From positions 1 to 30,522 of IMG/VR virus record IMGVR_UViG_3300005827_000106: a stretch of DNA of 30,522 nt. One strand, given 5' to 3'. Under the pieces are notes generated by a model. It worked only from the letters and a program-made list of their open reading frames with translations, was not told the origin of the DNA and searched no databases. The position numbers were made by a program, and so were the translations under genes. The DNA comes from a virus. This document shows, in pieces, positions 805-30,522 of this stretch (the first letter of the stretch is position 1; each line of letters opens with the position of its first letter).

Positions 805-1041
805 GTGATCCTCACCCAGCAGAAGTTGATCGAGCAGCTGCGGGCCCACGACATCCACGTCGGGCCCCAGACGATCCATGCCTGGGTGAGGGCAGGGGCC
901 CCGACCAAGCCCGGCTGGAAGAAGCCCCGGTTCATCCTGGCCCAGGTGCTGGCCTGGCTGGAGGCCGTGGGGCAAGTGGATCCGCTGGAGCTGGAGGTCC
1001 GGGATAGACTGTTTCACAAGAGCCTCAAGAGGACCGGATGA
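805..1041 (+). CDS. winged-helix DNA-binding protein, probable excisionase
   Basis: GTG start at 805 with AGGAG at 791-795. The 78-residue product has an AlpA/MerR-like winged-helix layout: a helix-turn-helix at about residues 5-28 (KLIEQLRAHDIHVGPQTIHAWVR), a GAP turn, a basic wing (KPGWKKPRF), then FILAQVLAWLEA. Its stop overlaps the integrase start by four bases (ATGA at 1038-1041), so the two are probably co-translated. Small winged-helix proteins next to a tyrosine integrase usually act as recombination directionality factors, bending the attachment DNA to favour excision. It could instead be a local repressor; the coupling to the integrase favours excisionase. Confidence 0.65.
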   Translation: MILTQQKLIEQLRAHDIHVGPQTIHAWVRAGAPTKPGWKKPRFILAQVLAWLEAVGQVDPLELEVRDRLFHKSLKRTG

Positions 1042-2045
1042 CACGCTGGCTGTTCAAGCGGGGCAAGTTCTACTGGTACCGCTTCAGCATCGGCGGGATC
1101 GAGTTCACCGGCAGCACGAAGGCCACCGACAAGGCCACCGCCATCACCATCGCCGAGATCGTGCGACGGGACACCGTCCTGGGTGGTCACGGCGTCCGGA
1201 AGGCCCCGACGCTTGGCGCGGTGGCTGCTGAGTGGCTGGGGAGCCGCGGCAAGTCCGCCAGCCCCTCGCACCGCCGCGCAGCTCGGCAGAGCCTGGAGGC
1301 CCTGGGGACGCTCACGAAGCTCCCCCTAGACCGCCTCACCACCCCGACCATCCAGTCCTGGCAGGCGGGTCACCTCCAGGACCACAGCCCGGCCAGCACG
1401 AACCTCGTCCTGCGCTACCTGAAGTTGTGGGTGCGCTGGGCCCTGGGCCAGAAGCTGATCCGGGAGATGCCCTACACTGTGAAGCCCACCAAGCAGCAGC
1501 AGCGGCCCCGCCCGGTGGTGGAGGACGTGGCTGGGTTCCTGGCCAAGGTGGACACGGGCGTCAGGAACCACCAGGTGCCCGCGGCCGTCCGCTTCGCCCT
1601 CATGCTGGGTGTCCGGGAGGGCGAGGTGCTTCAGGCCCGCTGGGAGTGGCTGCGCGACGGGGCCTACACCGTGGCGGGGAAGACCAAGTCCTCGAAGATT
1701 CGCACCATTCCCGTTCCCGAGGCGCTGCGGGTGTCCCTCATGCAGATGCTGGCGGCCAAGGAGTATGGCCCCTCCCGGGTGCCAGACCTCGGCCTGATCT
1801 TCCCCGGCACGGGCGGTAAGCCCCACAAGCAGGGCTGGCTGCGTCAGGCGCTCAAGCGGGGCGGCATCGACGGTCTGGGCATGCACCGGTTGCGGGCCAC
1901 GTTCATCACCCTGCACCTGCGAGCTGGAGCCCCGAATAAGGAGGTCCAGGACATGGCCGGGCATGAGGACATCCGGACGACCATGCTCTACACGGAGAGC
2001 AGCCAGGACGTGAAGCGGAAGCAGCAGGACAAATTGTGGGCTTGA
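1038..2045 (+). CDS. int: tyrosine-recombinase integrase
   Basis: This 335-residue phage integrase would catalyse site-specific recombination between attP and a tRNA-Thr gene in the host. An N-terminal arm-binding-like segment (about 1-50) is followed by a core-binding domain (about 55-150) and the catalytic domain (about 160-335). Catalytic residues are visible: R193 (GVREGE), a lysine in the beta-hairpin KTKSSK at 215-220, H283 and R286 in HRLR, H309 in GHEDIRTT, and the nucleophile Y318 in MLYTE. The length is normal for the family and the protein looks intact. It ends 76 bases before the tRNA-derived core and is read toward it, the usual arrangement for a phage that integrates into a tRNA 3' end. 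Its start overlaps the stop of the excisionase candidate. Confidence 0.95.
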   Translation: MTRWLFKRGKFYWYRFSIGGIEFTGSTKATDKATAITIAEIVRRDTVLGGHGVRKAPTLGAVAAEWLGSRGKSASPSHRRAARQSLEALGTLTKLPLDRLTTPTIQSWQAGHLQDHSPASTNLVLRYLKLWVRWALGQKLIREMPYTVKPTKQQQRPRPVVEDVAGFLAKVDTGVRNHQVPAAVRFALMLGVREGEVLQARWEWLRDGAYTVAGKTKSSKIRTIPVPEALRVSLMQMLAAKEYGPSRVPDLGLIFPGTGGKPHKQGWLRQALKRGGIDGLGMHRLRATFITLHLRAGAPNKEVQDMAGHEDIRTTMLYTESSQDVKRKQQDKLWA

Positions 2046-3786: not shown

Positions 3787-5727
3787 CTACGCTCGGCTCC
3801 CGCCCGTCACGAACCAAGCGCTTGCGATGGGGAAGTAGGTCAGCTCAACGCAGCCGTACTGAGCGAAAGTGATATCCAAGGACCCCCCAATGAAGATGCG
3901 GTTCCCCGTCGCTGATACAACGTCGTGTGAGATGGTCATAACGAAGGCCGTGTAGTTCAAGATGGTGATCTTCCGGCCTGCGGGGCTCGTAGGCGGTACC
4001 AAGCCAGTGATGCTGAAGTCCGCAGTGGGACCCGTCACATAGAGGTTGCTGCCCGTGACCGGAAGCGCCACGTCGCTGTTAACGCCGTTCACCATGGCGA
4101 GCGCCACCTGAGGGCTGCGGGGGACGTTGACCACCAGCTCGGTGAGCGTCTCGATCTTGCCCGTGGTGGTTTCAAGGAAGGTATTGGAGCCAGTGGTGAG
4201 CGAGAGCGCGCTCGAGGCATTGGCCAAAAGGTTCCCGCGGATGATGTTGAAGTCCGAGTTGGCACCTTCGGCAATGGCCCTAACCTGCTTGGGCGCTACT
4301 GCCGTGTCCGAGACCAGGTTGCCCTCGAATAAGCAGTAGGTCGTGTTGTCGAAGTCGATGCCTCCAGAGAAGCCGTCACCGCTTCGGTTCGAGCGCATGA
4401 TCGTGTTGCAGGTCACTGCCACGTTTTTGTTCCCGGCCCCATCTCCGATGGTCAACAGGATCCCGCGGGTCGCGGAGTCACTGATCGAATTCCCAGTGAT
4501 CACGCCGTCTTCAAGATCCGATGCGGTGATGCCACTTCGATCAGTCGATCCAGTACAGGTGTTCCCTTCTACGGAAAATGAACGCAAGTTAACCAATTCG
4601 ATGTTTGTGTAGCAGTTACCCACTGTGTTCTGCGAGATGACCATTCCCGACTGCACACCGCTGGCCGCCAGGGTCCCGATGTAGAGGCCTCCCAGCAGGC
4701 ACCCGGATACGGCGTTCTGGGTGATGCTGACGCCCGAGATGGCTCCTCCATTGGCCTGGTATGTGGTGATGCCCTTGCGTTGCGCCCCGGTCACCCGGTT
4801 GTGAGCAACGGATCCTTCCTTGGTTGGGGCACCCGCTCCAAGACTGACGATCTGGATGCTGTGGTTGTCGCTGATCCCAACCACGCCGTTGGCATCCAGG
4901 ACATTGCCCAGGATGCCGAATCCAACCTGGCCCTCCCACCAGATGCCGGAATAGTAGGTGTCGTGGATGTAGTTCCGAGTCACCACGTTCCGGGATCCGC
5001 CCGTCAACTTGACGCCGAAGGCCTTCGAGCCATTCCCCTTGTTGCCATCCAGTTCGAACCCAGTGATCAGAATGTCATCGCCAGGGCCGTAGAAAATGCC
5101 GTTGTTGTAGCCAAGGTCCACGCCCCCCTTGACGACGATCCGGCAGCCGTTCCCGAGGTAGGTGGACCCGGTGTAGGCCAGCAGGCCAGCGCTGATGGTG
5201 TAGGTCACCCCGTTGGTGAATTCCAGGGTTCCCCCCTTGGCTGCCAGCATCGCCGCCTGCACCACGGAGGTGTCGTCTGGCGTGTTCCCGGGGCCGAAGT
5301 CCGCCACGTTGATGGTGTCGGCGTTCTTGCTGTGCTGGGTCCGCGCAATGCTGTCGGTGGCGACCAGTTTGACCCCTACCAGTGCATCTCCAAGCAGGGG
5401 GTCCGTGGTATTCGAGAAGTCGTTCAGCAACCCAGAATTTTCCGACGGCGACGAGAAGACCAGCAGGCCCTTCTTGTTCTTCACCATGATCGAGTAATCG
5501 GTGTTGGTGAAGATCTTCGCGGGGGTCCCATTCTGGGCTGGGTAGCCGCTGAGGGTGCGGATCGGCTGCGCCGCGGGGATGGTCATGGCCTGGTCCAAGA
5601 ACACCGCAATGGGGTTCGACTGGGGATCCGTGTTCGCGGTCCCGATGTAGATGAAACCCGCATCCAGCGCGGTTCCGTCGGTGTCGGTGAAGAACCCGTA
5701 GGGATTGAGGACCTCGTTGCTGGGCAT
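3787..5727 (-). CDS. tailspike with P22-type head-binding domain and beta-helix
   Basis: 646 residues. Residues 1-95 match the P22 gp9 head-binding domain: GFIYIGTANTDPQSNPI at 24-40, then AQPIRTLSGYPAQNG and the strand DYSIMVKNKKGLLVF at 78-91. Residues about 140-500 form a right-handed parallel beta-helix with many NxI/GNxI turns (NVVTRNYIHDTYYSGIWWEG and similar rungs). This is the fold of pectate lyases and receptor-cleaving tailspikes. The C-terminal ~120 residues form a separate beta domain likely to aid trimerisation. The protein should attach to the tail hub and bind or cleave surface polysaccharide. The catalytic residues cannot be picked from sequence alone. GGGGAG precedes the start and overlaps the end of the upstream ejection gene. 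Confidence 0.9.
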   Translation of the reverse strand: MPSNEVLNPYGFFTDTDGTALDAGFIYIGTANTDPQSNPIAVFLDQAMTIPAAQPIRTLSGYPAQNGTPAKIFTNTDYSIMVKNKKGLLVFSSPSENSGLLNDFSNTTDPLLGDALVGVKLVATDSIARTQHSKNADTINVADFGPGNTPDDTSVVQAAMLAAKGGTLEFTNGVTYTISAGLLAYTGSTYLGNGCRIVVKGGVDLGYNNGIFYGPGDDILITGFELDGNKGNGSKAFGVKLTGGSRNVVTRNYIHDTYYSGIWWEGQVGFGILGNVLDANGVVGISDNHSIQIVSLGAGAPTKEGSVAHNRVTGAQRKGITTYQANGGAISGVSITQNAVSGCLLGGLYIGTLAASGVQSGMVISQNTVGNCYTNIELVNLRSFSVEGNTCTGSTDRSGITASDLEDGVITGNSISDSATRGILLTIGDGAGNKNVAVTCNTIMRSNRSGDGFSGGIDFDNTTYCLFEGNLVSDTAVAPKQVRAIAEGANSDFNIIRGNLLANASSALSLTTGSNTFLETTTGKIETLTELVVNVPRSPQVALAMVNGVNSDVALPVTGSNLYVTGPTADFSITGLVPPTSPAGRKITILNYTAFVMTISHDVVSATGNRIFIGGSLDITFAQYGCVELTYFPIASAWFVTGGSRA

Positions 5728-5728
5728 G

Positions 5729-7783
5729 TTACTGCTCCCCTTCGGTGGTGGGTTGGTCCTGAGGTGTGCCCAGGGAGAGTAGGCGCTTGAATATGGCCCC
5801 TTCTTCTGCGCTGCCGGGCTTCACGGTGGGCAGCTTCATCAGCAGGTTGCGCATGGGTGCGGATTCATAGGCCCGGGCGAGGCCCCCGATGGTCGCGGCG
5901 CCGGCAGTGGCACCCATGGGGCCGCCCAAGGTCTTGCTGAGCAGATCAGCCGCCAGGATGGGGACCGCATGCATGCCGTTCTGGGGCACGTTGGAAGCCA
6001 CAGAGGCCCGCTTGGTCAGATCCAGTGCCCGGACGAGCCCCTGCAGCCGCTGCTCGTCAGCCCCCTTGAAGAACACCCCTACCGGAGCCCCCAGGCGCTT
6101 GACCTCGGAGACGAACTTGACTGGGCTGAGGTTGTCAACCCCGCCAGACTTCTCCAGGGCCTTGCTGAGCACCGCTATGCGGGCATTGGCCTGGCCCTGC
6201 GCGGTAAGTCCACTGTTGAGGGCGGCCACATCACTCGGCTTCTGGCTGAAGAGCATCTTCTGAACGACTTCGGGGGTCTGCTCGCCACGCTGCAGGACGC
6301 CACGGAGGGTGTCGTTCTCGAGCTCGCCAGCCATCTGGGATAGCCGCTTGTTGGCCACCATCCACCTGTTGTAATCAGGCTTCCCGCCATTGGTCAGGAT
6401 GTAGTCGCCGATGTCTTCCTTGAGCGGCTTGTAGATGGCGCTCAAGGCCTTCTCGCCGATCCCCTTAACCGCGGTGAGCTCGGGGGCCTTGAACGCCTCC
6501 CCGATCTGCTTCCGGAGCGTCTCGATATTCCCCAGGTCCTGCCCCTGGATGGCCTGGCGCCAGTCGGCAAGCCGGGCGATGACCGGGTTGACCGAATCCG
6601 TCCTCAGGGCCGTGAGTTTGGCGATCTGGTTATCGATCTCGGCCACGGTCCGGTCCGTGGTGACGGCGCCGGCCTGCGAGATCTTCGACACTACACCGGA
6701 CTTCATGCCCGAATACTTCGTCAGGTCCGCGCTACGCTTAGCCAGCAGATCCGCCATGACGTTGTCAGAGGCCTGGGCCAGGTCGCCCGCACCGTATTCG
6801 GTCAGCAGGTCCCTGACCGCCTGAACTCGGGTGGCCTGCTGAGCCTTCCGGGTCACACCGGTCCCGATGAACGGGATCTTCTCGCCGGCCGCCTGCAGCC
6901 ACTTCGAGGCGAAGGTGGTGGGCGGGAGCACGTCGGAGGTCATGGGCTTGATGCCCAGGCCCTCAGCCTCCTGGACGGCGGTGTCCAGCGCGTAGGCGTT
7001 CTTCAGGGTGCGGGGCTGGGCTGCGATGCCTCCCAGCAGGCCCCCGGTGATGCCCGCCACGGTCTGGCCGGTGGGCCCGAAGCCCATCTCTTTGGCGGTT
7101 GCGGATGAGACACCAGTCCCGGCAGCGCCAACCACCTGCTGGGCAGGATTCTGGGCGAGGAGGTTCCCCGCTGCCTGGCGGATGGTGGGGGTTGGGTTCA
7201 CCACGGGCGCCGTGGGGGATTGGAGAGCCTTGCCCATCTGGACCGTGCCCAGGCCAGCGCCGGCGGCCTCCGCCCCAGCCTGGACGATGCGCTCAGCACC
7301 CGTGCGCGGGCGGTAGACGCCCAACTTGTCCATGAGGAGGTTCAAGCCATCGGACGGGGACAACTGATGATGCTTCGGGTCCACGCCCAGGTGGTCCAGT
7401 AGGCTGTTGATGCCGTGGGCTAGAGGATCGAGCATCTTGGCGGCCGCCACGACAGCGGGCCCCTCGGGACCGACAGCCAGCGAAGCAGCATAGGGTGCCA
7501 AGCCACGAGTCGCTGCGCCAACCAAGCCGGCCGCCGTTGTCTCGGGCTTCGCGGCGTCGGGCGCCGGCTGCTGAGCCACAGAAGCAGGAAGAGGAGCACC
7601 CGGGTTGTGCGATGGCAGCATCTGGGGCGTGACCTCGTGGGAGGCCATCATCTGGGGCGCCGGGGCCCCGCCACCAGCACGAGCCGCGGCAACCCGGTCC
7701 TTCACCTGCTGGGAGTTCGGATCCACATCGTCAGGGATGCCCCTGATCGTGATTCCGTCCTTGGTGACCACATCGTAGGGCAT
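5729..7783 (-). CDS. large internal virion/ejection protein (gp16-like position)
   Basis: 684 residues, rich in Ala and Gly and mostly helical. The N-terminus (YDVVTKDGITIRGIPDDVDPNSQQVKDRV) resembles the short 'DGxxIxxIPDDVxPxS' start found in many large phage internal proteins. Residues about 85-115 and 160-260 are small-residue-rich with membrane-active character (GLVGAATRGLAPYAASLAVG). The C-terminal half has long helices with Asp/Glu/Lys heptads. It is the third of three consecutive genes just before the tailspike, the place of P22 gp16 among gp7-gp20-gp16, so it probably leaves the capsid with the DNA and helps form a conduit. No lysozyme or protease motif is evident. Function rests on position and composition. 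Confidence 0.7.
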   Translation of the reverse strand: MPYDVVTKDGITIRGIPDDVDPNSQQVKDRVAAARAGGGAPAPQMMASHEVTPQMLPSHNPGAPLPASVAQQPAPDAAKPETTAAGLVGAATRGLAPYAASLAVGPEGPAVVAAAKMLDPLAHGINSLLDHLGVDPKHHQLSPSDGLNLLMDKLGVYRPRTGAERIVQAGAEAAGAGLGTVQMGKALQSPTAPVVNPTPTIRQAAGNLLAQNPAQQVVGAAGTGVSSATAKEMGFGPTGQTVAGITGGLLGGIAAQPRTLKNAYALDTAVQEAEGLGIKPMTSDVLPPTTFASKWLQAAGEKIPFIGTGVTRKAQQATRVQAVRDLLTEYGAGDLAQASDNVMADLLAKRSADLTKYSGMKSGVVSKISQAGAVTTDRTVAEIDNQIAKLTALRTDSVNPVIARLADWRQAIQGQDLGNIETLRKQIGEAFKAPELTAVKGIGEKALSAIYKPLKEDIGDYILTNGGKPDYNRWMVANKRLSQMAGELENDTLRGVLQRGEQTPEVVQKMLFSQKPSDVAALNSGLTAQGQANARIAVLSKALEKSGGVDNLSPVKFVSEVKRLGAPVGVFFKGADEQRLQGLVRALDLTKRASVASNVPQNGMHAVPILAADLLSKTLGGPMGATAGAATIGGLARAYESAPMRNLLMKLPTVKPGSAEEGAIFKRLLSLGTPQDQPTTEGEQ

Positions 7784-20373: not shown

Positions 20374-22490
20374 TGGGGCATTCCTGTCTGCTCGGGCGAG
20401 GGGGCGGCCGCCTGGTCTCCGCTTGGTGCTGGTTCTTCTGCGATCTGGCCCACGGCCTTGCCCAGCTGCTGGGCAACCGCCAGCGCGTGGTTCTGAGCGT
20501 CGATGCTCAGGGTGGACATGACCTTTTCGGTGTCAGCCTTCACCTTCTCGGTGTCGGCGACGATCTTGACGGTGTCGGCCTTGGCCTTGGTCGCCTTGGC
20601 CTCCTCGTTGGCGGCCATGCTGTTCATGAGCTGCGTCTGGGGGTCAGGCGGGGCAGTGGCGGCCGCGGCTGCCAGCATCTTCTGCTCGTCCTCGGTGGGC
20701 TTCACCACGCCCATCTTCACGAGCTTCATCCGGAAGTAGTCGCGCACGTCCCCGACGCCTTCGCCTTCCATGTTCATCATGATCATGGACTGCAGCACCT
20801 GCTGGGTCTCGGGGTCCTGGGTCAGGGCCATGACGTTCGTCAGGTTCCGGACGATGGTCTCCCGCTTGCTCATCGAGGAGGGGCCAACCTCCACAGCCAC
20901 GTCCATCGAGGCGTCTGAGACGTCGTTGGTGATCTTCAGTTCGCCGGTCTCAGGGTCCAGGATCGGCTTGGCCATCTCCACGGACCCGGCCTCCCCGCGG
21001 TCCCCGATGGTCTTCATCTTCCGGCCCTCTTCGCCGCCGGGGTAGATGTCCTTGGCCATGCTGAGCCAGATCTCGCCAGACCGGCGGATCGCCTTGGCCA
21101 TGTTGCTGATGTAGATGAAGGCCTGCATGTCCAGGCGGGTCTGAACCAACTCAATGGCCTTCCCGCTGATGTTGGAGACCATCTTGTCGGCGCCCTGAGG
21201 GTTCCCGAGGATCTCCTGCATGTCCTGCTCGGTGAGCTGCAGCAGGGCGGCCATGGCCGGCGGGATCTCTGGGGCCTTCGTGTAGGCCATGGGCCCGGCG
21301 GGGAGTTCGTTCCCGTTGGGGTCCGTCATGGGGTTCAGGAGCAGGTAGGGGTAATTCTTCAGGTTGTCGTCGGCCCACATCAGCTGGTGCCCGCTGATCT
21401 GCTGAGGGGTCAGGATCGGCTTGGAGACGCTGGACAGGGCGCTGATCTCGCCCAACTTGCTCAGCTGCATGTTCTTCAGCCGCTGGGGGTCCTTGGCCAG
21501 GCGCACGTGGCCCATGCACCGCTCGATGCCGTCCACGAACCAGCGCTTGCCGAACATGGGCACGACCGGAATGCACTTCCCGGCGATGCGGCCGCAGTCC
21601 TCGAGGACCTTCCCGCCGCTCATGATGTATTTGTGGACCTTCTTGGTCTTGAGCTTCTTCTCGGAGATCCGCACCCACCCGGTGGCCAGCAGCTGGGGCT
21701 CGATGTCCTCGTCCTCGTCCAATTCGCTGGCGAGATAGACGTCCTCATCCCCGGTGAGGCTCTTGAACGTGATCGCCACGTCCTTGACCTCTTCGATCCG
21801 GTAGTACTCGGCCAGGTTGACCACGTCGGGGGTGACCCAGTCGAACTGGCCACCCGAGAGGTCAGCCTTCGGCCAGCTGGCGGGGTCGTCCTTGTATTCC
21901 TCCTTGTAGGCCGGAACGGTCATGGAGGACAGCACAAAGCAGTGCTTGGCGTCGGCCTTGTCCTGTCGCTTGGCATCCAGGTCGAAGAACACACAGGAGT
22001 CGGCGTCGTAGATCGGTTCGAACCGGATCCGCTGCCTCGGGTCTTCGGGGTCCTCGTCGTTCTCGTAGGTCGCCCGCAGCCGCCAGGCCCCGATGCCACC
22101 GCCCACACCTTCCTCGAAGGCGTTGTCGTAGGCCTCCTCAGCAGCGCTGTCCTGCTCGTCGGCCCGGTAAAGGCCCACGCAGGTGTCGGCCAGGCCCGTG
22201 TCCTCAGCCCCGTCCTTGGGGATGAAGGAGACATCGATCCGGTTGTTCCGGTATTCGTTGAAGATCCGGATCACGGCCAGGTGGACCTTGTTGACTTCGA
22301 ACTTCGGCTTGTTCTCGAACTGCTCGCCCAGGTTGCCTTCCCACTGGGCCCCGGCGATGGAGTAGAACCGGCGGTCCTCCAGGCACTGCTGGCGCTCCTC
22401 GCGGACAGCGGTCTGGATCTCGTTGAACTGGCGCAGGGCCGTCTCGTGGACCGCCTTCAGCCGTTCTTCCTTCGTGGGTCGGGACATCAT
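20370..22490 (-). CDS. P22 gp1-like portal protein
   Basis: 706 residues from ATG 22488-22490 (P22 portal 725); ATG 22485-22487 or GTG 22496 are alternatives, and AGGTGG is spaced best for 22487. The dodecameric portal is the packaging vertex and the seat of the tail. P22-type segments include REERQQCLEDRRFYSIAGAQWEG, NKVHLAVIRIFNEYRNNRI, a GG-containing turn GVGGGIGAWRL, IRFEPIYDADSCVFFDLDAK, CIPVVPMFGKR and GNPQGADKMVSNISGKAIEL. The C-terminal ~90 residues are helical and Ala/Gln/Lys-rich, like the P22 barrel. Its start overlaps the TerL stop (ATGA) and its end overlaps scaffold. Confidence 0.9.
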   Translation of the reverse strand: MMSRPTKEERLKAVHETALRQFNEIQTAVREERQQCLEDRRFYSIAGAQWEGNLGEQFENKPKFEVNKVHLAVIRIFNEYRNNRIDVSFIPKDGAEDTGLADTCVGLYRADEQDSAAEEAYDNAFEEGVGGGIGAWRLRATYENDEDPEDPRQRIRFEPIYDADSCVFFDLDAKRQDKADAKHCFVLSSMTVPAYKEEYKDDPASWPKADLSGGQFDWVTPDVVNLAEYYRIEEVKDVAITFKSLTGDEDVYLASELDEDEDIEPQLLATGWVRISEKKLKTKKVHKYIMSGGKVLEDCGRIAGKCIPVVPMFGKRWFVDGIERCMGHVRLAKDPQRLKNMQLSKLGEISALSSVSKPILTPQQISGHQLMWADDNLKNYPYLLLNPMTDPNGNELPAGPMAYTKAPEIPPAMAALLQLTEQDMQEILGNPQGADKMVSNISGKAIELVQTRLDMQAFIYISNMAKAIRRSGEIWLSMAKDIYPGGEEGRKMKTIGDRGEAGSVEMAKPILDPETGELKITNDVSDASMDVAVEVGPSSMSKRETIVRNLTNVMALTQDPETQQVLQSMIMMNMEGEGVGDVRDYFRMKLVKMGVVKPTEDEQKMLAAAAATAPPDPQTQLMNSMAANEEAKATKAKADTVKIVADTEKVKADTEKVMSTLSIDAQNHALAVAQQLGKAVGQIAEEPAPSGDQAAAPSPEQTGMPQ

Positions 22491-23812
22491 GACCACCTGT
22501 TCATAACGGGCAGAGGAACGGCCTGCTTCTCGGTCTTCTTGGGCAGCACGATCCCGCCGAACAACTCAGCCAGGACCCAGATCCAGGCGTCCGCGCGGTT
22601 CGGGGACTTGCCACCGAGGTAGCCACTGGTTGAGAAGGCGGTGAGCTCGTCCTCCAGCTCGTGGAAGTCGCCGACGTGGCGGATCTTCCCCTGCTCGTAG
22701 AGGGCGCTGAAGGGCTCAGCCCGGACAGCCTTGGAGCGGGTAGCGCTCACGGATCGGTAGGGGGTGCGAGACCGGGCGGTCTGGATGGTCGCCTTGACCA
22801 TGGCCCCTCCGTAGTTCTCCTCGCCCACGACCACGTCCGCCTGGTGTCGGTCGAAGGCCTGCGTGGCGACCCGGGCCCAGGTGGCGGGGCCAGCCTTGAC
22901 CGTGCAGTCCTCCAGCAGGTAGGCGTTCCCGTCTGTTCCCAGGCCGCCGACGCAGATCCCGATGGCGTCGTTGTCCGGGGAGTCCCCGTCAGCTCCGGAG
23001 GGGTCCACGCCAACCACGACCCGCACGAAGTCGGGCAGCTTGCCGTCCGTCACCCGCCACTTGTCGAAGTCCTCGTCGTGGAACAGGGCGTTCGGGGTGG
23101 CGTCAGCGAACTCACCCTTGAGGAACCGCTTCTGCAGCCGCGCGGACAGGCCAAGCAGCGTGTCCAGGTAGTCCTTGCTGATGTTCTCGGTGTTGTCCTC
23201 TGGGTTGATCTGGAAGAATGTGTAGTCGTCCGGGTTCGGCAGGGGCTTCTTGGTCTCGGTGTCCCGCTTCTCCACGAAGAGTGAGTAGGTCCAGTGGGCC
23301 TTGGAGGGCGGGTTCTCGTCGTAATACATCCGCGGCTGCAGCCTGACCGGCGGCCGGCCCTGGATGATCTGGTCCACCTGCTGGGCCAGGCGGGTCACGG
23401 CCAGGTCCCGGGAGCCTCGGGGGATCTGGGAGGCCTCGTTCAGGTAGATGGTGCAGAACTCCATGCCCAGGATCTTCTCGGTGCGCTCCTTGTCATCCAG
23501 GCCGCCAAACCAGATCTGGCTCCCGTTGTCGAACTCGGCGAACCAGTCGGACTTGTCCATCCGGAACGTCACGCCGGGGAAGGCGAGTTTCATCACCTTG
23601 GGGAAGGTGTCCAGGACGACCGAGGCCTTCACCGCGTTGAACCGGAAGCGGAGGATGGCGTGGCGGCTCATGGGGGCCTTCAGCGCCCGCATGACCACGT
23701 TGCGCACCAGGAGGAACGTCTTTCCAGACCGGGAGCCCCCGAACAGCATGATGTGCGTTGCAGGGCCTGCGAGAACGGCTTGAGCCTCCGTCTGGCGCGG
23801 GGTCAGTTTCAT
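22487..23812 (-). CDS. terL: terminase large subunit (packaging ATPase/nuclease)
   Basis: 441 residues. The ATPase domain has Walker A GGSRSGKT (25-32), Walker B CTIYLNEA (120-127, with catalytic E126) and a coupling motif around DENPPS (165-170). The RNase H-like nuclease has D270 in GVDPSG, E331 in GEENYGG and D408 in SPNRADAWIW, the three expected acidic metal ligands. It pumps DNA into the procapsid through the portal and cuts the concatemer. The start ATG overlaps the TerS stop by four bases, and its own TGA overlaps the portal ATG. All catalytic positions seem present. P22-like phages cut by headful, but the packaging type cannot be read from this sequence. Confidence 0.95.
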   Translation of the reverse strand: MKLTPRQTEAQAVLAGPATHIMLFGGSRSGKTFLLVRNVVMRALKAPMSRHAILRFRFNAVKASVVLDTFPKVMKLAFPGVTFRMDKSDWFAEFDNGSQIWFGGLDDKERTEKILGMEFCTIYLNEASQIPRGSRDLAVTRLAQQVDQIIQGRPPVRLQPRMYYDENPPSKAHWTYSLFVEKRDTETKKPLPNPDDYTFFQINPEDNTENISKDYLDTLLGLSARLQKRFLKGEFADATPNALFHDEDFDKWRVTDGKLPDFVRVVVGVDPSGADGDSPDNDAIGICVGGLGTDGNAYLLEDCTVKAGPATWARVATQAFDRHQADVVVGEENYGGAMVKATIQTARSRTPYRSVSATRSKAVRAEPFSALYEQGKIRHVGDFHELEDELTAFSTSGYLGGKSPNRADAWIWVLAELFGGIVLPKKTEKQAVPLPVMNRWS

Positions 23813-24297
23813 AGGCGCTCGTCCACGCCAGAGGCGACCACGGTCACGGTGCCGCTGTGCTCAACCTTGTCGGTGAACATCTTCAGGTGCTTCCCGAGCA
23901 ACTCCTGGGCCCTCAGGGCGCCTTGCGCGTCGAACTGGAACACCTGGGCCAGGATCTCCTCGCCCGTTTCGGGGTCCGTGATCTCCTGGGTGAGCCGCTT
24001 CCGGTCCCTGCCCTTGCCGATCATCACCGGGTCGCGCTGTAGGCACCGTTGGCCAATCTCGATGATGTTCTTGAGCACGGTGTCGGACGTGATCTCGACC
24101 CGCTTCCGTCGTTCATCCATGGCCGCCTGGATAGCAGACGCCAGCACAGTATTCCTCAGTAGTTTTGAAGCGTTGACCTCAACGGTCCGGCCCTTCCCTG
24201 CATAGCCAGCACGACGGTAGGCGGCCGATGCGTTCAGGTCGATCAGGTATTCCCTAACGAAGGCGGCCTGCTTGGGGGTCAGGGGCTTGCTGCTCAC
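23809..24297 (-). CDS. terS: terminase small subunit
   Basis: 162 residues from GTG 24295-24297. The N-terminus is the classic Terminase_2-type helix-turn-helix: LTPKQAAFVREYLIDLNASA, AAYRRAGYAGKG, then NASKLLRNTVLASAIQ. This domain recognises the packaging site. The central helices (DERRKRVEITSDTVLKNIIE) fit the oligomerisation coil, and the C-terminus carries FDAQGALRAQELLGKHLKMF, a motif common in this family. It overlaps the previous gene by GTGA and TerL by ATGA. It recruits TerL to phage DNA; the pac site would probably lie in or near this gene, though none is recognised. Confidence 0.9.
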   Translation of the reverse strand: MSSKPLTPKQAAFVREYLIDLNASAAYRRAGYAGKGRTVEVNASKLLRNTVLASAIQAAMDERRKRVEITSDTVLKNIIEIGQRCLQRDPVMIGKGRDRKRLTQEITDPETGEEILAQVFQFDAQGALRAQELLGKHLKMFTDKVEHSGTVTVVASGVDERL

Positions 24298-24647
24298 CGA
24301 GGCCCCCCGGGATTCTTCATGGCCTCAAGGAGATCCTTCAGGCTCTTGGCGCCGGATCCGGTGAGGGTGATGGCCGGGTCGGTCTTCTCGTAGGGGCAGT
24401 CATCGTGCGGGCAGGCATCGGAAGCGCGACGAAGGCGCAGGGCCTCCAGGTCGCTCTTGTGCTGAATTTGCGTCACGAACTTGTCGGACAGGCTGGTGAT
24501 GCTCTCCCTCAACCCCTCTACCGACTCCTGGAGCTTGTCGATGTGGTCGAACCACTTCTTGGCAGCGAATCCAATCACAGCCAGCAGGGTCAGGAACATG
24601 GCCCCGAAGAAACTGATGATGATGGAGGACATCAGAGCAACACTCAC
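24294..24647 (-). CDS. membrane-anchored coiled-coil protein of the lysis cassette, holin/accessory type
   Basis: GTG 24645-24647, with GGGAG six bases upstream and a GTGA overlap with the preceding stop, gives 117 residues; an open frame to 24803 lies inside that gene. One N-terminal transmembrane segment (about 6-28, MSSIIISFFGAMFLTLLAVIG) is followed by a basic turn and a coiled coil (FDHIDKLQESVEGLRESITS). A CPHDDCP cluster follows at 79-85 (C79, H81, C84), and then a short C-terminal helix. It lies between the spanin-like gene and TerS. It could be a class III holin, an antiholin or a membrane tether. The Cys/His cluster is unusual for a holin. Confidence 0.7.
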   Translation of the reverse strand: MSVALMSSIIISFFGAMFLTLLAVIGFAAKKWFDHIDKLQESVEGLRESITSLSDKFVTQIQHKSDLEALRLRRASDACPHDDCPYEKTDPAITLTGSGAKSLKDLLEAMKNPGGPR

Positions 24648-25255
24648 TGGAGTCTCCCGGCGACATAGCCGAGGGCAGACCCAACGGCAAAACCCTCGAT
24701 GCGACCGCGCCACTTGGAGGTGGTCACGGCCTGCTTCCATGCACGGGTGGCTTCCGCCTGAGCCATGGCTTGGCGTTCCCGCGCCTCGGCCGTAGCCTTC
24801 CATTCGTTCCGTGAAACAACGAGGGCCGCTATTTCAGCCTTCTGGCCTTCGATAAAATAGGCCTGGGCCTGAATGACCTCAGCGTCCTTGGTGATTACCG
24901 CGTCGCGCTCGGCTATCCCAGCCTTAAGAACTTCCAGAGGTTCGTCCCCAAGAACGGGACCGGGGTCACCTTGTCCGGGCTTTTGGTTGGCGGCCAGTTT
25001 TCGAAGGAGCGCATTACGCTCCGCAATGACCCGATCCAGATCCTGCTTTTGACGGTCCACCTTGGCCTTAAGGTCTGCCGCCAGTGCGTCCGATGTCTGG
25101 GCCTGGGCCTGATGGGCATTCGCTTCCCCCTGGTGGATCGCGGATTGGGTCTCGGCCTGGGTGCCCTGCCTCTGCCGGCACGAGTCCGCCCCGATGAGCG
25201 ACACCAGAACCGCCAAGATGGCGCACAGTCCGTAGGCCGCATATCGGGGGGTCAC
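24644..25255 (-). CDS. Rz-like inner-membrane spanin candidate
   Basis: GTG 25253-25255 overlaps the TGA of the upstream holin-like gene, giving 203 residues. The frame open to 25549 is antisense-like and lacks a start signal. An N-terminal membrane anchor (RYAAYGLCAILAVLVSLIGA, about 4-23) precedes C26 and a long periplasmic coiled coil rich in Ala, Gln, Glu and Lys (about 30-165, with DLKAKVDRQKQDLDRVIAER). The end is GFAVGSALGYVAGRLQ. Size and layout match i-spanins of Gram-negative phages, which fuse inner and outer membranes after holin and endolysin act. No nested Rz1 lipoprotein was seen, so it may act alone or be a different membrane coil protein. Confidence 0.65.
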   Translation of the reverse strand: MTPRYAAYGLCAILAVLVSLIGADSCRQRQGTQAETQSAIHQGEANAHQAQAQTSDALAADLKAKVDRQKQDLDRVIAERNALLRKLAANQKPGQGDPGPVLGDEPLEVLKAGIAERDAVITKDAEVIQAQAYFIEGQKAEIAALVVSRNEWKATAEARERQAMAQAEATRAWKQAVTTSKWRGRIEGFAVGSALGYVAGRLQ

Positions 25256-25530
25256 TTGGCGCCCCCACTGGTCGATTCGCTTCCCGGCGCAACTCCAGCG
25301 GGGGCAGGTGAGGCCGAGGCCTCTACGGACTTGCCGGTCTTGTAGACCCAGCCAATGAGACCGCCCAGCGCCAGGCAGACCGTGCTGATCTCTCCCGCCA
25401 CCGCACGGCCACGGAAGGCCGCCACAGACAGAATCAGGAGCGCAAGGCACAGAGAGACGCAGGCGAGAATAGCTACCAGGGCATGGGTGCGCTCGTTGCC
25501 CTTGTTCAGGAGGCGCAGGCCGAGGTTCAT
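25252..25530 (-). CDS. putative holin (two transmembrane segments)
   Basis: 92 residues from ATG 25528-25530, coupled by ATGA to the upstream gene. Two hydrophobic segments are clear: residues about 18-39 (ALVAILACVSLCLALLILSV) and about 47-63 (ISTVCLALGGLIGWVYK). A basic N-terminus (NLGLRLLNKGNERTH) precedes the first, and a low-complexity Ala/Ser/Pro/Gly tail follows the second. Two segments with short size is the class II holin pattern. Holins time lysis by making holes in the inner membrane. Its place between a peptidoglycan-active candidate and an Rz-like gene supports this. Small membrane proteins have little sequence signature, so the call rests on topology and context. Confidence 0.65.
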   Translation of the reverse strand: MNLGLRLLNKGNERTHALVAILACVSLCLALLILSVAAFRGRAVAGEISTVCLALGGLIGWVYKTGKSVEASASPAPAGVAPGSESTSGGAK

Positions 25531-25964
25531 CCCGCCACCTGCGGGGCATCCTGGATCGTCAGCCAGACCTTCTCACCCTTGTCCAGGGCCTCCTGGACCA
25601 TCTGGAACAGCTGCGGCAGCATGACCGAGCCGCCACGGATCCGGTCAGGTGTGACTACCACGGAGCCCACCAGGATGCAGCCCAAGGTGTCATCGGCATC
25701 GTTGCCGCTGTGGATCCGAATGCCCGTGAAGAAGGGGACACCCTCCACGAGCAGCATCTTCTTCTGGAACTTCACGCTCCAGGTGATGTCCACGGGGTAG
25801 CGGCCAGCAGGGATCGCGGTCTTCCCGTAGATCTTGCCCTCGCCATGCTCGCCTAGGTCCCGAACGGGATCCTCGAGCGTGTGGCAGAACGGGCGGCCGT
25901 CAACGTCAAGATTCCCCAGCGTGGCCAGGGCGCTCGACTGTTGACGGGTGAGGGACAGTTCCAA
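25527..25964 (-). CDS. DUF5675-like protein, candidate peptidoglycan-active lysis enzyme
   Basis: 145 residues from TTG 25962-25964; no other start exists in frame back to the previous stop. The DUF5675-type plan is visible: strands ATLGNLDVDGRPFCHTLEDP (12-33), GKTAIPAGRYPVDITWSVKF (48-67), VEGVPFFTGIRIHSGNDADD (73-92) and TLGCILVGS (93-101). H85, T93 and C96 in the IHSGN...TLGC block recall the H...[S/T]xGC active site of L,D-transpeptidase (YkuD) folds, although the spacing is shorter. It is first in a chain followed by holin-like and Rz-like genes, the usual place of an endolysin, and no other endolysin is visible. Activity on peptidoglycan is inference. The TTG start and weak ribosome-binding site suggest restrained translation. 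Confidence 0.7.
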   Translation of the reverse strand: MELSLTRQQSSALATLGNLDVDGRPFCHTLEDPVRDLGEHGEGKIYGKTAIPAGRYPVDITWSVKFQKKMLLVEGVPFFTGIRIHSGNDADDTLGCILVGSVVVTPDRIRGGSVMLPQLFQMVQEALDKGEKVWLTIQDAPQVAG

Positions 25965-28198: not shown

Positions 28199-29121
28199 CA
28201 ACCCACCTCTTTCAACTGCGCATCAGCCCAGTCCGTCCCGACCATGGGGGGGATCAGCACGTCCACCTGCAAACCCTGCCGGACCAGGCGGTGGGCCAGG
28301 GTGTAGGCAGCGTCCTGCCCGGTGAAGTTCGAATCGTTGTCCCCGAAGACCGCCACGGACTTGACGCCAGCGGGTGGCTCCCAGGTCTTCATGCCGTTGG
28401 CGTTCAGGGCGCTCCAAACGGGCAGGGAGAAGAGCTTCGAGCTGCAGATGGCCGTCTCTATGCCCTCGGCCACGCCCAATCGCTCCTGGACCCCTCCCAG
28501 GCGTACCTGGGCGCATTCCCCGAGTACCATCCGGACTGGATCCACGGCTGCCTTCCGGCCCTCGGGTGTCAGGTAGGTCCGGTGGATCCCGACCGCCTTC
28601 CCTTCGTTGGGGCGCAGCAGCGCCAGCATGGCGGGATGGTTCTGCCCGTCCATCGTGTGCCTCAGTTCCGGGTGGAAGCGCAGATCCTCGAGCACTGCCG
28701 AGGGATCACCGCAGCGCCGCTCCAGGTAGAGCCACACTGGATCGCCTGGCTGCACGGGCTTCGCGTCCGTCCAGAGCTTGATCAGGATCCGGCGCTTGTC
28801 GTCCTCGGTGCGCTGGGCCTTCTGCTGGGTCACATGCACCGTACCCAGGATGGAATCCACCCAGGCCGCGGCCTTCTCGAAGGGCTTCAGGTTCTTGAAC
28901 TCCATGAGCAGTTTGAATCCCGACCCGGGCCCGCACTGGCTGCAGTAGTAGGTCCCGTCCCCCTCCAGGTCATCGAACCGGAAGCGGTCCTTCCCGTCCC
29001 GGCAGAGTGGGCAGGGCCCGTGCTCGTTCTTCAGGTAGGACTCATCCAGTCCGGCCTGCAGTAGGATGCCCCGCCACTTGCCGCGGGCGGCGTCCCTGGT
29101 CTTCTCCATGGTGACGCTCAT
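28198..29121 (-). CDS. TOPRIM DNA primase
   Basis: 307 residues from ATG 29119-29121, four-base overlap with the helicase stop; the frame open to 29466 lies within the helicase gene. A zinc-binding domain has CPLC (C37, C40) and CSQC (C60, C63) around RFRFDDLEGDGTYYC. A linker leads to a TOPRIM domain with LGVAEGIETA (E219), FGDNDSN (D261, D263) and GTDWADAQL. This is the plan of phage primases of the P4-alpha/T7 gp4 group that lack a helicase half. It makes RNA primers for phage DNA synthesis; a separate SF2 helicase is encoded just upstream. The predicted metal-binding acidic residues are all present. Confidence 0.9.
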   Translation of the reverse strand: MSVTMEKTRDAARGKWRGILLQAGLDESYLKNEHGPCPLCRDGKDRFRFDDLEGDGTYYCSQCGPGSGFKLLMEFKNLKPFEKAAAWVDSILGTVHVTQQKAQRTEDDKRRILIKLWTDAKPVQPGDPVWLYLERRCGDPSAVLEDLRFHPELRHTMDGQNHPAMLALLRPNEGKAVGIHRTYLTPEGRKAAVDPVRMVLGECAQVRLGGVQERLGVAEGIETAICSSKLFSLPVWSALNANGMKTWEPPAGVKSVAVFGDNDSNFTGQDAAYTLAHRLVRQGLQVDVLIPPMVGTDWADAQLKEVG

Positions 29122-30522
29122 GAGGCCCTCCGGTTGTGGAAGGCGATCTGAAGGGACTTGATCTTGCCGACCACGTGGCGGGTGGGCTCGACCACAGGGG
29201 CCGTATCCACCTTGAACTCGTGCGGAGGCCATGCCCCGGTCATCTCGCGGTAGAGGTGCGCAGCGCGGCCCTGCTGCTTCTCGGGTGCGCTGTGGGTGCG
29301 GGCGTAGGTCGCCAACTGGGCCCAGAGGTGGGCGGCGTCCGGCGCCAGCTTCTTCCCGTTGAGGGTGATTTCCTGCATCTCGCCCGGCAGGTGCTGAACC
29401 AGGCTCTGGGGCGCGGGCTCGTACCCACACCGAACACAGCGCTTGCCCATGGGGGTGTAGGCGCACTTGGGACAGGCCTTGGGCTCCTTCTCCTCATCCT
29501 GGCGGACCGCCTTGTCCAGCTTCTCGCCGTCGTCCAGCTTGTCCAGGCCGTTGAAGAAGATCTCGGAGTAGTCGTCAGCGAAGCGAATGATGTTCCCCGA
29601 GAAGTCGAGGAGGATGCACTCGGTCTTCCCGGTCTCAGGTGAGCTCCGGAGTCCCCGCCCCCACATCTGAATGGCGGTGCTGAGGCTCTTGCGGAGCGGC
29701 CGGCAGTCACAGACGCACCCCACGTCCGGAACGTCGAAGCCCTTGGCCAGGGCCTCCACGCTCACCAGCACCCGCAGGTAGCTGTCTGGCTTGCGGTAGT
29801 CGTCCAGCAGGGCCTTGCGCTCGTCTTCCTTGGTCTCGCAGGTGAACATGGCCGCGGGGATTCCTGCCTCGTTGAATTGCTTGGCAATCTCGGCACAGTG
29901 GTTGATCGTGGCTCCAAAGACGATGGTCTTGAGGCCCAGGGCCAGGCGGTTCCACTCGGAGACCACATCGCCCACGAGGACCAGTTCCCGCTCCTCGGCC
30001 GCCCGGTCCGTCCACTCCCCGCCGGAGGTCTCCGCCCCGCTCATGTCCGGGCGCCTGCAGCTGAAGACCCGCATGGGGACCAGCACACCCGAATCCGTGA
30101 GGCTGGCCATGGTGGCGGCGTTCACGAGGTTGGTGAAGATTCGGCCCAGGCCAGCGCTGAACGGCGTGGCGCTGAGGCCCACCACCATCGCCTTGCAGTC
30201 GGCGGACGTGACGAAGTCCACCCAGCTTTTGTACTGGGTGTGGCACTCGTCCACGATCAGCACGTCCACCTCGGGCCAGCCTCGGCGCATCAGGGTTTGC
30301 AAGCTGGCGATCTGGAATTGCTTCCGCAGGTCCAGCCGCGGGTGGTCCGCCATGATGATCGAGTGGTTCCCCAGTCCGTAGCGCGTGGCCGTCTCGCTGG
30401 TCTGCAGAATCAGGGTCCGGCGGTCGCAAAGGAACATGGCCCGCTTGCCCTTCTTGATGGCCTCGGAGATCACGCGCATTCCCAGGAAGGTCTTCCCGGC
30501 GCCGGTGGCGGCCATGATGCAC
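29118..30522 (-). CDS. SF2 DEAD/DEAH-like helicase (N-terminus beyond the window)
   Basis: At least 465 residues are visible, and the frame continues past the right edge (an upstream CI precedes the first visible Met), so the true start is not in the window. Motif I is ATGAGKT right at the edge, motif II IVDECH, motif III LSATPF, then CCGF-type helicase-C motifs including VSVEALAKGFDVPDV and motif VI IQMWGRGLR. A zinc-ribbon-like CPKC...CVRC follows at about residues 351-371. This family (ResIII/UvrB-like phage helicases) opens DNA for replication or recombination. It leads the overlapping chain of replication genes. The lost N-terminus is probably short, since motif I usually lies within the first 40-50 residues. 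Confidence 0.9.
   Translation of the reverse strand, partial: CIMAATGAGKTFLGMRVISEAIKKGKRAMFLCDRRTLILQTSETATRYGLGNHSIIMADHPRLDLRKQFQIASLQTLMRRGWPEVDVLIVDECHTQYKSWVDFVTSADCKAMVVGLSATPFSAGLGRIFTNLVNAATMASLTDSGVLVPMRVFSCRRPDMSGAETSGGEWTDRAAEERELVLVGDVVSEWNRLALGLKTIVFGATINHCAEIAKQFNEAGIPAAMFTCETKEDERKALLDDYRKPDSYLRVLVSVEALAKGFDVPDVGCVCDCRPLRKSLSTAIQMWGRGLRSSPETGKTECILLDFSGNIIRFADDYSEIFFNGLDKLDDGEKLDKAVRQDEEKEPKACPKCAYTPMGKRCVRCGYEPAPQSLVQHLPGEMQEITLNGKKLAPDAAHLWAQLATYARTHSAPEKQQGRAAHLYREMTGAWPPHEFKVDTAPVVEPTRHVVGKIKSLQIAFHNRRAS

Follow-up and report, generated by a model that had tools for sequence, protein, structure and literature searches.

DUF5675 proteins of predicted L,D-transpeptidase-like shape, a rarely studied enzyme type with which unrelated phages probably lyse their hosts

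We propose, at a probability of roughly 70%, that the DUF5675 protein of a P22-like podovirus is the endolysin of this phage: a cysteine peptidase that has the L,D-transpeptidase (YkuD-like) fold and is used as a hydrolase. Judging from the predicted shape of this protein, unrelated phages probably lyse their hosts with a rarely studied enzyme type. The proposal draws on the position and conservation of a lysis cassette, the search for other wall enzymes in the same and related genomes, invariant residues and a structure prediction, and the neighbourhoods of DUF5675 genes in other phages.

Results

A candidate lysis cassette in the P22 position

The window, by which we mean the whole stretch of DNA analysed, is the entire IMG/VR virus record IMGVR_UViG_3300005827_000106 (30,522 bp) and was handled as linear. 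Among its P22-like podovirus genes are those for portal, scaffold, coat, head-tail adaptor and ejection proteins and for a tailspike that carries a P22 head-binding domain. A helicase-like ORF with a Walker-A-like motif (29118-30521, minus strand) runs past the end of the record, which is therefore a fragment. A 335-aa ORF on the opposite strand to the late genes (1038-2045, plus strand) resembles a tyrosine integrase by eye, which suggests a temperate phage.

Four coupled genes had been described directly before TerS, and all four ORFs were found there on the minus strand, from 25964 to 24294 (Table 1). Every junction of the cassette is a 4-base overlap, ATGA between the DUF5675 and holin-like genes and GTGA at the other three, that with TerS included. 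The preliminary description had also singled out the placement before the terminase; it is an ordinary one, shared by the holin-endolysin-Rz genes of P22 and lambda. The P22 order is ninB ... 13 (holin), 19 (endolysin), 15 (Rz), Rz1 ... 3 (TerS), lambda carries S-R-Rz-Rz1 at the same genome end, and the window runs from a NinB-like gene through the cassette to TerS, TerL and portal. Because the DUF5675 gene occupies the slot of the P22 lysozyme, this position supports a role in lysis, which would be the role of P22 gene 19 and lambda R, likewise found with holin and Rz before the terminase. The product of P22 gene 19 is a GH24 lysozyme and that of lambda R a transglycosylase. The order within the window differs from both, with the enzyme first and the holin second.

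Table 1 Cassette genes and landmarks of the window, with DUF5675 genes of microviruses
Feature	Coordinates	Strand	Evidence
DUF5675 protein, candidate endolysin, 145 aa, TTG start	25527..25964	(-)	PF18925, E 1.1e-26
Two-TM holin-like protein, 92 aa	25252..25530	(-)	hydropathy only
Rz-like protein, i-spanin candidate, 203 aa, start GTG 25255	24644..25255	(-)	N-terminal TM, then long helical/coiled-coil stretch
TM-coiled-coil protein with CPHDDCPYEK, 117 aa from GTG 24647 or 112 aa from ATG 24632	24294..24647	(-)	hydropathy
TerS, terminase small subunit, downstream landmark	23809..24297	(-)	phrog_51, E 2e-36
TerL, terminase large subunit, downstream landmark	22487..23812	(-)	64.6% identity to G003 TerL
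NinB/Orf-like gene upstream of cassette, as in P22	26416..26937	(-)	phrog_72, E 1.6e-18
DUF5675 genes of microviruses L030, L031 and L032 (positions in those genomes)	4839-5252; 3955-4380; 4705-5085		two scored, both over Pfam cut-off

The holin and Rz of the window are candidates identified by topology alone. The holin-like protein has two hydrophobic segments, with hydropathy peaks at residues 18-21 and 44, and reaches the cut-off of no Pfam or PHROGs family (weak matches to MgtC, DUF6234 and phrog_1142). The Rz-like protein has a TM segment at residues 5-26, followed by a charged, alanine-rich, helical-looking stretch in which a coiled coil was judged by look, and the TM-coiled-coil protein has its TM segment at residues 1-27; no Pfam or PHROGs family was above cut-off for either. 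No Rz1-type lipoprotein came out of a lipobox scan that covered 24201-25400 in all three minus-strand frames.

Conservation and mobility of the cassette

Eight IMG/VR records carry a gene 60-99% identical to the DUF5675 gene of the window, and because relatives at such identities retain this gene, and most of them its neighbours too, a chance arrangement is excluded. The order DUF5675, small TM gene, Rz-like gene is kept in the relatives G001, G002, G003 and L002, and Rz-like proteins of 38-58% identity follow DUF5675 in the same order in five relatives. The TM-coiled-coil protein is 77% identical in G001, where its CPHDDCPYEK Cys/His motif is kept, and its Cys cluster is kept in part in L002. 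In G001, G002 and L002, the DUF5675 protein is 85-99% identical to that of the window, yet the small TM gene next to it is unlike; the exchange of unlike holins around a retained enzyme is usual in lysis cassettes.

The arrangement differs in G003 (IMGVR_UViG_3300043431_000178), a P22-like genome of 39,614 bp whose TerL matches the Pfam families Terminase_3, Terminase_6N and Terminase_6C. Here the DUF5675-holin-Rz block lies between TerL and portal and not before TerS, so the block has moved as a unit. This genome is taken as complete, because an exact 127-bp direct repeat stands at both ends (1-127 and 39488-39614).

DUF5675 as the only recognisable lysis enzyme

The earlier claim that the window has no other recognisable wall enzyme held for lysis enzymes and failed in one respect: residues 241-397 of a 684-aa DNA-ejection protein (5729-7783, minus strand) match phrog_29864, labelled 'transglycosylase' (E 1.6e-10). 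Pfam SLT has no match in this protein, which would be an entry protein and not an endolysin. A standard endolysin was likewise found neither in the window, itself a fragment, nor in G003, where a Pfam scan of 97 ORFs of at least 80 aa returned DUF5675 as the only wall-enzyme family.

The search was extended to tailed phages with DUF5675, up to 14 records that range from podoviruses to crAss001 and T4-like phages. Phage_lysozyme (GH24), Amidase_2, M15_3 and M15_4 were over cut-off in none of them, and SLT was over cut-off in three, in frames of 413-1139 aa. A search for GH19 gave no signal, not even in its controls, and so carries no information. The fully annotated 130-kb genome of Vibrio phage VPALA lists a baseplate tail lysozyme and has no annotated endolysin. 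As a control, TerL relatives were surveyed: DUF5675 was near TerL in 0 of 77 loci, and among 21 longer records GH24 was present in two, DUF5675 (far from TerL) in one, both in none and neither in most. With neither found in most of these records, the control lends weak support to replacement.

These surveys bear on the reading that the DUF5675 protein assists lysis or modifies the wall, for instance against superinfection, while an unrecognised protein is the true endolysin. Room for such a protein exists, as the helicase-like ORF running off the end marks the window as a fragment, many G003 proteins belong to no family and in the Thiohalocapsa phage discussed below a C93 cysteine peptidase is encoded close to the cassette. 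We nevertheless consider this reading improbable, given that no further lytic enzyme is recognisable in G003, which has terminal repeats, and that several unrelated DUF5675 phages have none of the common endolysin families.

Family membership and predicted active site

The window protein belongs to DUF5675 (PF18925) at 93.4 bits, against a curated Pfam cut-off of 26.7 (E 1.1e-26), and falls into phrog_1501, listed by PHROGs with function unknown, as is the family by Pfam. The block IHSGN...TLGC (H85, T93, C96) had been likened to an L,D-transpeptidase active site. The block is invariant in close relatives, and H85, G87, G95 and C96 do not vary across 67 diverse members of the family; T93 is nearly invariant (T or S), giving a [T/S]xGC nucleophile. 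We predict H85 and C96 to be the catalytic residues. A further stretch, IPxGxY, is kept in the family besides this block.

The canonical L,D-transpeptidase motif HXX14-17(S/T)HGCh is absent; the window protein has H85-x10-C96 with TLGC and thus a shorter loop. The distance from His to Cys is 11 in the window protein, 17 in Pgp2 and 8 in DpaA, a YkuD enzyme of solved structure whose loop is short too (IHGDCVSIGC) and whose SPEGFY(SV) stretch resembles IPxGxY. The YkuD family PF03734 has no match in the window protein and matches 3 of 67 relatives weakly (best E 0.019). The Tlde1 family PF10908 likewise has no match in the window protein, and two further DUF5675 members reach 13-14 bits against its cut-off of 30.1. 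This family, Tlde1_dom, is the one that, besides DUF5675 itself, has weak matches in the largest number of DUF5675 members, and its matches are colinear over the His-Cys block.

A predicted YkuD-like fold

An AlphaFold2 model of the DUF5675 protein, made with 67 relatives, has a pLDDT of 95.2 and a pTM of 0.89. When Foldseek's PDB candidates were re-aligned with VIA-align, each of rows 1-21 was a YkuD-fold enzyme, either an L,D-transpeptidase or an L,D-carboxypeptidase, with Z of 7.6-9.9 over 96-115 aligned residues, against 4.5 for the next, unrelated row. Among these, Pgp2 scored 9.9, DpaA 9.1, Tlde1a 9.0, Csd6 8.6, Bacillus subtilis YkuD 8.3 and LdtMt2 about 8. The predicted fold is shared with Pgp2, Csd6, DpaA and B. 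subtilis YkuD over residues 1-142, together with the His and the [S/T]xGC nucleophile; the window protein differs from these enzymes in having no PF03734 match and no signal peptide and in being encoded in a phage lysis locus.

Plain Foldseek against the PDB gave no significant match for the model, nor did PDB sequences yield anything relevant to the protein in phmmer or profile searches. Profile comparison by hhalign with shallow alignments, of DpaA by itself or of four YkuD sequences, was not significant and no better than controls, so homology between DUF5675 and YkuD rests on structure and motif. Because the sequence-profile link is weak, we place the protein in a YkuD-like fold, outside PF03734 and PF10908.

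The same data bring in the main rival to the endolysin reading, namely that the protein is a peptidoglycan editor like the type VI secretion system (T6SS) effector Tlde1, which would trim or exchange D-Ala4, block crosslinking and lyse the cell indirectly through wall failure. Tlde1a reportedly acts both as an L,D-carboxypeptidase and as an exchange enzyme and kills cells by making them swell (PMC9638812). It is among the top structural matches, Tlde1 is a stand-alone compact enzyme too, and 18 of the 67 family members match Tlde1_dom weakly (best E 0.003), in colinear fashion at the His-Cys block. These matches are all below the Pfam cut-off, however, and Tlde1 differs in having the canonical motif and T6SS delivery. 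Furthermore, timed holin-released lysis usually needs fast cutting of the wall, whereas editing of the Tlde1 type depends on ongoing wall growth. We thus regard this reading as unlikely, though it is the foremost of the alternatives.

DUF5675 neighbourhoods in other phages

A link between DUF5675 genes and lysis genes was borne out beyond the relatives of the window. Across 53 non-redundant IMG/VR loci, TM segments were found in 35 of 73 small same-strand neighbours of DUF5675 (48%), compared with 24 of 177 (14%) further away (p 2.2e-8). Members of three Pfam holin families and of one PHROG holin family are among the neighbours. The downstream gene in L008 was considered as a GTA-type holin, for which Pfam gave no support.

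The closest precedent lies in crAss-like phages, in which GenBank names the DUF5675 homologue 'L,D-carboxypeptidase/transpeptidase' and its neighbours 'lysis regulatory protein' and 'lysis regulatory protein/holin'. The homologue in crAss001, gp30, is of the DUF5675 family (about 36% identity), has the same His-Cys block and stands beside lysis-annotated genes; gp27 of this phage has, by inspection, an N-terminal TM segment and a coiled coil. The two phages differ in that crAss001 is a 100-kb phage of a Bacteroides host whose holin and spanin-like proteins have no sequence relationship to those of the window. According to the crAss001 paper, three genes have lytic functions (PMC6235969). In a Thiohalocapsa phage, an N-terminal-TM coil gene, a lipobox gene (LTAC) and a C-terminal-TM gene precede a DUF5675 gene annotated 'peptidoglycan hydrolase' in GenBank.

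In T4-like Pseudomonas and Vibrio phages (three examined: L028, L029 and L036), the DUF5675 gene directly follows portal and precedes the prohead core genes, with no clear lysis cassette. This arrangement would suit a protein of virion assembly or entry whose lysis-gene neighbours elsewhere are coincidental, as would the large proteins (868-1251 aa) of jumbo and other phages that contain the domain and could be virion lysins. We hold such a role to be highly improbable, as the clade of the window, crAss001 and the Thiohalocapsa phage all have DUF5675 together with TM or coiled-coil genes, and small TM genes adjoin DUF5675 significantly above expectation.

The large proteins with a DUF5675-like domain include the BFVD entries A0A8S5VTR0 (868 aa) and A0A1L7N1E2 (Ralstonia phage RP31, 1251 aa), in both of which the domain is possibly part of a virion-borne wall enzyme. 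Complete ssDNA microvirus genomes of 5.5-7 kb also carry DUF5675 genes, annotated hypothetical (Table 1), and possibly these encode endolysins of ssDNA phages. M15 peptidases of other microviruses have been proposed as endolysins (PMC3394797). In L023 (MW202455.1), a DUF5675 gene at 5001-5450 has no annotation of any kind in the GenBank record.

Discussion

The proposed course of lysis begins late in infection, when the four overlapping genes of the cassette would, as their overlaps suggest, be translated together. Because it has neither a signal peptide nor a TM segment, the DUF5675 enzyme would gather in the cytoplasm; it would then cross the inner membrane through lesions for which the two-TM protein would be responsible. 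In the periplasm, His85 would activate Cys96 for an attack on the carbonyl of the meso-DAP L-centre (position 3), at the bond to D-Ala4; water would then resolve the acyl-enzyme. By the chemistry of the fold family, cleavage would hit the donor stem in 4-3 crosslinks and possibly in those of the 3-3 type, and the Rz-like protein may help to disrupt the outer membrane. Counting against this scheme, the known YkuD enzymes act mainly in trimming or building crosslinks, and an enzyme with L,D-carboxypeptidase activity alone would not cause lysis. More tentatively, and at somewhat less than even odds, DUF5675 proteins at large would be widespread stand-alone L,D-endopeptidase endolysins that cut mDAP-D-Ala, in P22-like podoviruses, crAss-like phages, T4-like vibriophages and microviruses.

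The preliminary description had put the protein forward as a possible endolysin of an uncharacterised type. This stands in so far as we found in the papers searched no biochemical test of crAss001 gp30 or of the window protein, nor an experimental test of any other DUF5675 protein; it does not stand for annotation, as the L,D-peptidase and lysis labels were already in GenBank for crAss-like phages. The functional hint therefore predates our analysis, in GenBank since crAss001 and in the knowledge of YkuD domains as rare phage lytic proteins. The PhaLP database, with 10 YkuD entries (PMC8310338), provides a precedent for the fold among phage lytic proteins, although these entries stem from PF10908, cd16913 and PF03734 and not from DUF5675. 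Our analysis adds the structural test, the standing of the candidate as the sole enzyme of a relative that has terminal repeats, a statistical link to membrane-protein neighbours and the spread to microviruses.

The family recurs in very different phages even though Pfam and PHROGs assign it no function. If the endolysin reading is true, many seemingly endolysin-less phages would possess one, a wall-building fold would be seen cutting the wall in lysis, and direct tests of lysis in crAss-like phages, which is largely uncharacterised, would become possible. DUF5675 may also yield enzymes of new cutting specificity.
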